Assembly: GCF_003073135.1 (NCBI RefSeq)
Contig: NZ_PGDQ01000008.1
Location: forward strand, 1-64,000
Source: Euzebya rosea
Lineage (GTDB): Bacteria; Actinomycetota; Nitriliruptoria; Euzebyales; Euzebyaceae
Reading direction: 5' to 3'
DNA: 64,000 nucleotides
The position numbers and the translations under genes were made by a program. The notes beneath the pieces are model-generated. The model was not told the DNA's origin and did not search any database. It worked only from the letters and a program-made list of their open reading frames with translations. The stretch's first letter is position 1. Each line of letters starts with the position of its first letter. Of this stretch, positions 25,388 to 45,417 are shown piece after piece.

Positions 25388-25448
25388 CCCGGGTCCCGGC
25401 CGGCCACCGCTGCCACCCTCGGGCCGCTCGGTCGGCCCGACCGGGGGT

Positions 25449-25591
25449 GTGTGCGTTCCCCCTCCCCCGTGGGCGTCCATCCCTCACACCTCAAGCCACC
25501 GTGCGGCATCACCACCTCGCCCGGGCGGGCAACGCACACCGCACCCGATAGCGGGTGACTTGCCCAGCCACAGGAGGAGGGAATGCCACAC
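25449..25591. repeat. 143-bp triple-palindrome element, copy 2
   Basis: The units are 25449-25487, 25501-25539 and 25553-25591, with 13-bp spacers. The first unit is more diverged (GTGTGCGTT, ending ATCCCTCAC). The second begins GTGCGGCAT and ends AACGCACAC; the third begins GGGTGACTT and ends ATGCCACAC. Unit and spacer lengths are identical to the copy at 2705. Confidence 0.75.
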
Positions 25592-25700
25592 GAGGCCGTG
25601 GCGGGCCGGCCCCCCACGGGCCGATCACCCGGGGGCGGGGCCGTCCGTCCACCGACGGGGCCGACCACCCTCGGGCCGCTGGTCCGTCCCAACCGGGGGC

Positions 25701-25843
25701 GTGTGCGATCCCCCTCCCCTGTGGGCGCCCATCCCTCACACCCCAAGCCACCGTGCGGCATCACCACCTCGCCCGGGCGGGCAACGCACACCGCACCCGA
25801 TAGCGGGTGACTTGCCCAGCCACAGGAGGAGGGGATGCCACAC
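25701..25843. repeat. 143-bp triple-palindrome element, copy 3
   Basis: The units are 25701-25739, 25753-25791 and 25805-25843. This copy differs from copy 2 by only a few bases and lies exactly 252 bp downstream, so the two arose by a local duplication. The first unit starts GTGTGCGAT, closer to the consensus than its partner. Confidence 0.75.
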
Positions 25844-25887
25844 GACCTCTTGGTCGGCCGCCCGGACGGAGGCCGGCGGGGCCGGTT

Positions 25888-44830: not shown

Positions 44831-45036
44831 CCGGTCGCCCTCCTTGGTGTCGCCCTGCAACGCGGGAGATGTCGAGCGTATCGGGTCGGAGGTTGCGGGG
44901 ACATTTCGGCCTGCCCCGCGGGCCACGGTCCGAACGGTCAGCTGTCCGGACACTGGCCGGTACGGCCCATGCGTGTCGGATATCGGGCCGCCCGTCGTGA
45001 TCGCCCGACACCACCCTGCTCCCTCGCGCAAGTCGG

Positions 45037-45086
45037 TCCTCCGGCCTGGCGGACGCGTGTGTCCTCCGGCCTGGCGGACGCGTGTG
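45037..45086. repeat. 25-bp tandem repeat, two copies
   Basis: A 25-mer starting TCCTCCGGCCTGGCGG and ending CGCGTGTG occurs at 45037-45061 and 45062-45086. Its second copy runs into the first palindrome of the element at 45082. The rest of 44831-45036 shows no gene or clear signal apart from the presumed epimerase promoter. Confidence 0.8.
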
Positions 45087-45224
45087 CGATGCACGTCCTC
45101 AGGCGCTCGGAATCGCACACGCCCATCCGCGTCGTGTGGCATGCCCACCTCCCTGGGCGGGCCATCGCACACGCGGCCCGAGGGTGGGTGCGATCGGCCG
45201 CCCCACGGGAGGGGGAACGCACAC
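45082..45224. repeat. 143-bp triple-palindrome element, copy 4
   Basis: The units are 45082-45120 (perfect ends GTGTGCGAT and ATCGCACAC), 45134-45172 (GTGTGGCAT and ATCGCACAC) and 45186-45224 (GGGTGCGAT and AACGCACAC), with 13-bp spacers. The inner stems TCC/GGA, CCC/GGG and CCCC/GGGG sit in similar positions. It lies upstream of the epimerase gene within a 587-bp gap. Confidence 0.82.
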
Positions 45225-45246
45225 GAGGAGCGCTGCGGCCGGTGCG

Positions 45247-45320
45247 ACGCCGGCCGGGGAGACGCCGGCCGGGGAAACGCCGGCCGGGGAAACGGCGGCC
45301 GGGGAAACGGCGCGGCCGGG
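45247..45320. repeat. 15-bp tandem repeats
   Basis: Four to five head-to-tail copies of ACGCCGGCCGGGGAA-like units with period 15 follow the palindromic element. The last copies carry one- and two-base changes. No coding frame of interest crosses them. They may have arisen by slippage. Confidence 0.75.
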
Positions 45321-45417
45321 GATGCGGCGCCGAAGATGTCCGGGCACGGCAGAACCCCGGCACCGCGGGGGTTGCCGGGGTCGTGAAACGGGGTCGGAGC
45401 CGGGGCCCCGAAACCGC

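Follow-up and report, generated by a model that had tools for sequence, protein, structure and literature searches.

Repeats found between genes are usually attributed to the debris of transposons or to hairpins in RNA. The element at 45082–45224 of the window, the whole 64-kb stretch of DNA analyzed here, consists of three palindromic units of 39 bp held at a fixed distance within 143 bp, and raises the question of whether either explanation accounts for it. Three interpretations had been offered in the initial annotation, namely a REP/BIME-like element moved in trans, an array for a DNA-organising protein and a three-hairpin RNA, and taken together these were partly supported. The protein-array reading fits best, in view of the symmetric invariant positions, a rigid spacing close to a whole number of helical turns and the lack of covariation. 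The best reading is of a putative nucleoprotein element with three sites, specific to this lineage and located at the 3' ends of genes; it is BIME-like in its placement and lacks the defining features of a REP.

Anatomy of the arrays

All four copies of the window lay exactly at the coordinates reported in the initial annotation, with its 39-bp units and 13-bp spacers also exact, and all four were intergenic, as it had claimed. The copies at 25449 and 25701 depart in several places from the GTGTG and CACAC ends that it described. The four copies are all present, although these same two represent one 252-bp tandem duplication. The features are as follows.

2705–2847, + strand: array 1; units 2705–2743, 2757–2795 and 2809–2847, 13-bp spacers 2744–2756 and 2796–2808; ortholog in Euzebya pacifica at L074:9927-10069
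25449–25591, + strand: array 2a; units 25449–25487, 25501–25539 and 25553–25591, with degenerate ends; ortholog in E. pacifica at C1:5418975-5419116
25701–25843, + strand: array 2b; tandem duplicate of array 2a, period 252 bp, 97% identity over 143 bp
45082–45224, − strand (the better fit to the consensus, the element being near dyad-symmetric overall): array 3; units 45082–45120, 45134–45172 and 45186–45224
45121–45133, no strand: 13-bp spacer of array 3 between the first and second units in + strand order
45173–45185, no strand: 13-bp spacer of array 3, GCGGCCCGAGGGT, of the reverse-complement type of the spacer-1 consensus ACCCTCGGCCGNC

The start of the array at 45082 is entered by a 25-bp direct repeat (45036–45085), and a GC-rich tandem repeat of about 16 bp lies 3' of it (45246–45322); both fall within a stretch that is absent from E. 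pacifica. Tandem duplication of whole arrays was frequent, with periods of 216–317 bp and copies 62–98% identical, and was seen at window positions 25413–25863 and in L037, L039, L041, L046, L047, L051, L052, L054 and L066. One array subfamily, found in both species, has arms of GGTCCTCGCTTCGCTCG-type modules, which reach about 180 bp on the upstream side and as far as 300 bp on the downstream side and are inverted across the array where both arms are present (L039, L042, L047, L051, L061, L064, L066, L069, L072 and L075). A terminal inverted repeat test found inverted arms in this subfamily only.

To define the unit, about 40 loci were taken from both species, a half-site matrix was trained and a gap-free alignment of 50 strict triplets was made. 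The resulting consensus (50 triplets, 150 units) was GnGyGnnWTnnnCnnC-n7-GnnGnnnAWnnCrCnC. Positions 1, 3, 5, 9, 13 and 16 and their mirror images were near-invariant, giving 12 dyad-symmetric positions per unit, while the others, including the 7 bp that separate C16 from G24 at the center, varied freely. The spacers had a weak consensus (ACCCTCGGCCGNC and GNNGCCCNACCCC). Unit 1 resembled the reverse complement of unit 3, and the 143 bp were roughly palindromic about the middle unit. Twelve dyad-symmetric base identities are what a site on double-stranded DNA would be expected to show.

Copy number and spacing in the genome

A scan of all 5.5 Mb of the genome for the unit pattern, allowing at most 2 mismatches, gave 131 matches, compared to 1 for the reversed pattern, and the two-unit 52-bp pattern gave 76 forward and 79 reverse matches, compared to 0 for its control. 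These counts exclude chance. A sequence-only model found 28 loci with about 31 arrays in E. pacifica; in this genome, after its hits were merged, it found about 54 arrays, spread over about 38 loci.

Three units were present in 61 of 82 runs, two units in 3 and four units in 1, with 17 single units, some of which were degenerate or located at contig ends. Neighboring units no more than 130 bp apart were separated by 52 bp in 120 of 139 cases and by 51 or 53 bp in none, with a few steps of 54, 55, 64 and 73–76 bp; both the run and the distance counts include one E. pacifica stretch twice. The statement that each element has exactly three units was therefore nearly right, although runs of two, four and single units exist, and the statement that spacer length never differs holds apart from the rare steps such as those of 54 and 55 bp. 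In these counts, neither the numbers nor the spacings of the units were random.

Gene context

Genes were called by codon usage, and 286 gaps of at least 100 bp served as background. The arrays lie downstream of genes, with 22 of 42 in convergent gaps, 20 in tandem gaps and none in divergent gaps, compared to 40 convergent, 160 tandem and 86 divergent (30%) gaps in the background. The orthologous loci among the 42 are not independent of one another; for the window's own genome alone, the divergent count was 0 of 22. The neighbors within the window were ordinary genes (ten genes scanned). Array 1 is flanked by genes for a dodecin and a PLP-dependent enzyme, array 2a lies between the convergent purD and AraC-family regulator genes, and array 3 is flanked by an epimerase-family gene and by an unassigned 65-aa ORF followed by a histone-deacetylase-family gene.

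Distribution and conservation

The arrays are carried by two sister species of the marine genus Euzebya, the window's own and E. pacifica. They were absent from two other Euzebya species according to the sequence-only model, hence their function is dispensable outside the carrier pair, and from 57 further relatives. Among about 85,000 species genomes, a set that leaves out records very close to the window's genome, the exact two-unit pattern had one isolated match in Bifidobacterium and no other; this pattern recovers 32 of 50 known arrays, so that an array-rich genome would have been seen. The two-unit pattern had 0 matches in viral contigs, and BLAST against phages and plasmids gave no match. 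The 572-kb plasmid of E. pacifica had 0 arrays, where about 3 loci would be expected at chromosomal density, a difference that was not significant. Literature searches found nothing on repeats in Euzebya or Nitriliruptor. The view that no described family has such a layout thus holds across the Rfam, genome, phage and plasmid collections and the literature searches.

About two dozen E. pacifica array loci were tested, and in every case the orthologous site in the window's genome also holds an array, one of these calls (L067) resting on a single flank. Conversely, for six arrays of the window's genome, including that at 45082, the corresponding site in E. pacifica carries none. Most copies are evidently inherited at fixed loci, and not freshly moved. 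Between the two species, ten shared loci showed 4.7% divergence at the invariant array positions, 41.7% at the variable positions and 30.0% in the spacers, compared to 28.9% at fourfold-degenerate codon sites. The variable positions therefore drift at or above the silent rate, whereas the predicted contact positions are kept, which places the latter under strong purifying selection and leaves the remainder in near-neutral drift. As the compared triplets were picked for exact 52/52 spacing, their lack of indels is partly selected and not independent, and the argument from spacing is carried by the unselected distance counts (120/139).

Three of the ten orthologous pairs had 56–59% divergence at the variable positions. 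In the comparison of L041:9600-10400 with L071:9800-10400, about 200 bp beside the array were almost identical, while the array itself was 59% different at these positions. Such pairs suggest replacement or conversion between array copies.

Evaluation of alternative explanations

A structured RNA or tandem-hairpin terminator, with three hairpins per transcript, would suit the location of the arrays at gene 3' ends and the inverted repeats of their units, and some single copies do fold somewhat better than shuffles. However, Watson–Crick pairing at the variable mirrored positions of the 150 units was no higher than random expectation. In the 42-row alignment, mirrored columns paired in 65.3% of cells compared to 67.1% after shuffling, none of the 500 shuffles falling below the observed value, and RNAalifold returned no consensus structure (energy 0 kcal/mol). 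The element had no match in Rfam, single-copy folds had no common three-hairpin form, and no U-tract or intrinsic terminator was found at the two window loci examined. The paired changes of the inner stems noted in the initial annotation are explained by too few examples in GC-rich sequence. On the pairing counts, shuffles, RNAalifold and single folds, the three-hairpin RNA was rejected, and we regard an RNA or terminator function at these gene ends as very improbable. Variable partners that do not covary point to the symmetry of a protein dimer, not that of a folded strand. REP and BIME units are short, dyad-symmetric and intergenic, lie in tandem or convergent gaps and rarely in divergent ones, form small clusters and are sometimes duplicated in tandem (PMC3733652, from which the membership criteria were taken). 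The units of the arrays are likewise dyad-symmetric and extragenic, located in tandem or convergent gaps, clustered and sometimes tandemly duplicated. The arrays differ, however, in having no GTAG/CGTC or unpaired tag, the unit consensus being symmetric, in showing no compensatory stem changes, and in possessing a fixed number of three units, a fixed 52-bp pitch and 12 spaced invariant positions in place of a conserved stem-loop. The RAYT-type transposase suggested for a search was not found, as the Y1_Tnp profile (PF01797) had 0 matches in the window's own and three other Euzebya genomes, compared to matches in 5 of 14 control genomes. REP/BIME membership was rejected on the tag, the stem compensation and RAYT, and what stands of a REP/BIME moved in trans is the BIME-like placement; most copies occupy fixed inherited loci.

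The same absence of a Y1/RAYT transposase from the four Euzebya genomes bears on a non-autonomous mobile element of a MITE or BIME-like kind, in which the three-unit block would be copied by a transposase in trans, the three units and the 52-bp pitch being a transposition substrate and not a host function. Like MITEs, the arrays are dispersed, and one subfamily has common inverted arms and related copies at different loci in each genome; whole-array tandem duplication is common, and the six arrays without a counterpart in E. pacifica would be expected of such an element. However, no clean target-site duplication was seen when filled sites were set against their empty counterparts in E. pacifica, the boundaries being blurred by GC-rich sequence, and most loci are common to species that are 29% apart at silent sites. 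The binding-site-like constraint, moreover, persists in old copies, which is not expected of idle transposon relics. A MITE origin is possible for the dispersal of the arrays, but we consider it rather unlikely that mobility accounts for the element as a whole. Marks for chromosome segregation or nucleoid occlusion would share with the arrays the presence of dozens of dyad DNA motif copies per chromosome, as for parS, Noc, SlmA and matS sites, and the arrays occur at about 30–40 loci per chromosome. In E. pacifica, where dnaA is at position 394, the 2.4 Mb between 1.04 and 3.42 Mb hold only 3 of 28 loci. This gap was picked post hoc (binomial 5e-4), and distance from the origin was not significant (KS p = 0.30; Rayleigh about 0.06), so that no origin or terminus bias is established. 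Known sites of the parS, Noc and SlmA type are short single palindromes, whereas the arrays are three-site, 143 bp long and placed at gene 3' ends, and a role of this kind appears improbable. The res sites of Tn3/gamma-delta have three dyad subsites with a pitch near 52–53 bp, the first two lying about 5 helical turns apart, and unequal units. A resolvase site of this type for site-specific recombination would share the three dimer subsites and the helical phasing, and the free central 7 bp and the frequent tandem duplications would also suit it. We give it hardly any credence, as the arrays occupy dozens of fixed loci per chromosome with equal units and spacing, and a scan of ten genes close to the window copies revealed no recombinase, serine recombinases included.

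A putative protein–DNA platform

We consider it fairly probable that a putative sequence-specific DNA-binding protein lands on the 143-bp element, whose dispersed copies would serve as its sites on double-stranded DNA. Each 39-bp unit would be a dyad of 16-bp half-sites with two contact patches, GnGyG and CnnC, and a W-T step between them. The centers of these patches are about 11.5 bp, or about one helical turn, apart, so that a single protomer probably contacts two major grooves in succession, and two protomers would occupy one 39-bp dyad. Three units at a 52-bp pitch of about 5 turns would then line up three dimers, possibly ones whose protomers are two-headed, along the same face of the helix. 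The two-groove protomer and the one-face dimers are thus probable on the spacing and established DNA geometry, and it is from the sequence that we infer protein binding and its stoichiometry.

Located at gene 3' ends, such a complex could act as a boundary for transcription or supercoiling or as a nucleoid-organising point. Such a role is suggested by the placement, in analogy with the one proposed for BIMEs, which in enterobacteria act with gyrase and IHF. Comparing the two species sets the alternatives apart, as the putative contacts and the pitch are kept, the rest drifts at about the silent rate and no pairing is kept. The arrays thus offer a clean case, open to experimental test, in which a dispersed repeat would be kept as a protein–DNA platform, and possibly a new chromosome-organising or 3'-boundary system in Nitriliruptoria, a little-studied actinobacterial class. 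More tentatively, they may represent a novel class of three-dimer platforms with a 5-turn pitch at gene 3' ends, confined to two sister species and accompanied by a differently spelled family with a 7-turn (72–73 bp) pitch, the platforms being served by a putative lineage-specific DNA-organising protein system.

Second repeat family and DnaA-profile hits

The second family has 39-bp units of the form GTGTCGG-N6-GGCCGCCCGTCG-N6-CCCGACAC, one of which is located at 44973–45011 of the window. Its units occur as pairs or triples at 72–73 bp, about 7 helical turns, with 35 units in the window's own genome, 69 in E. pacifica and 0 in the two other Euzebya species. In the pieces of E. pacifica that were read, many copies were a few bases from stop codons.

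The DnaA ATPase profile had six hits of the same score and length (403-aa frames) in E. pacifica, at C1 positions 285225, 473659, 2205378, 2672866, 3371559 and 3762133. Our guess is that these are copies of the helper gene of one insertion sequence.
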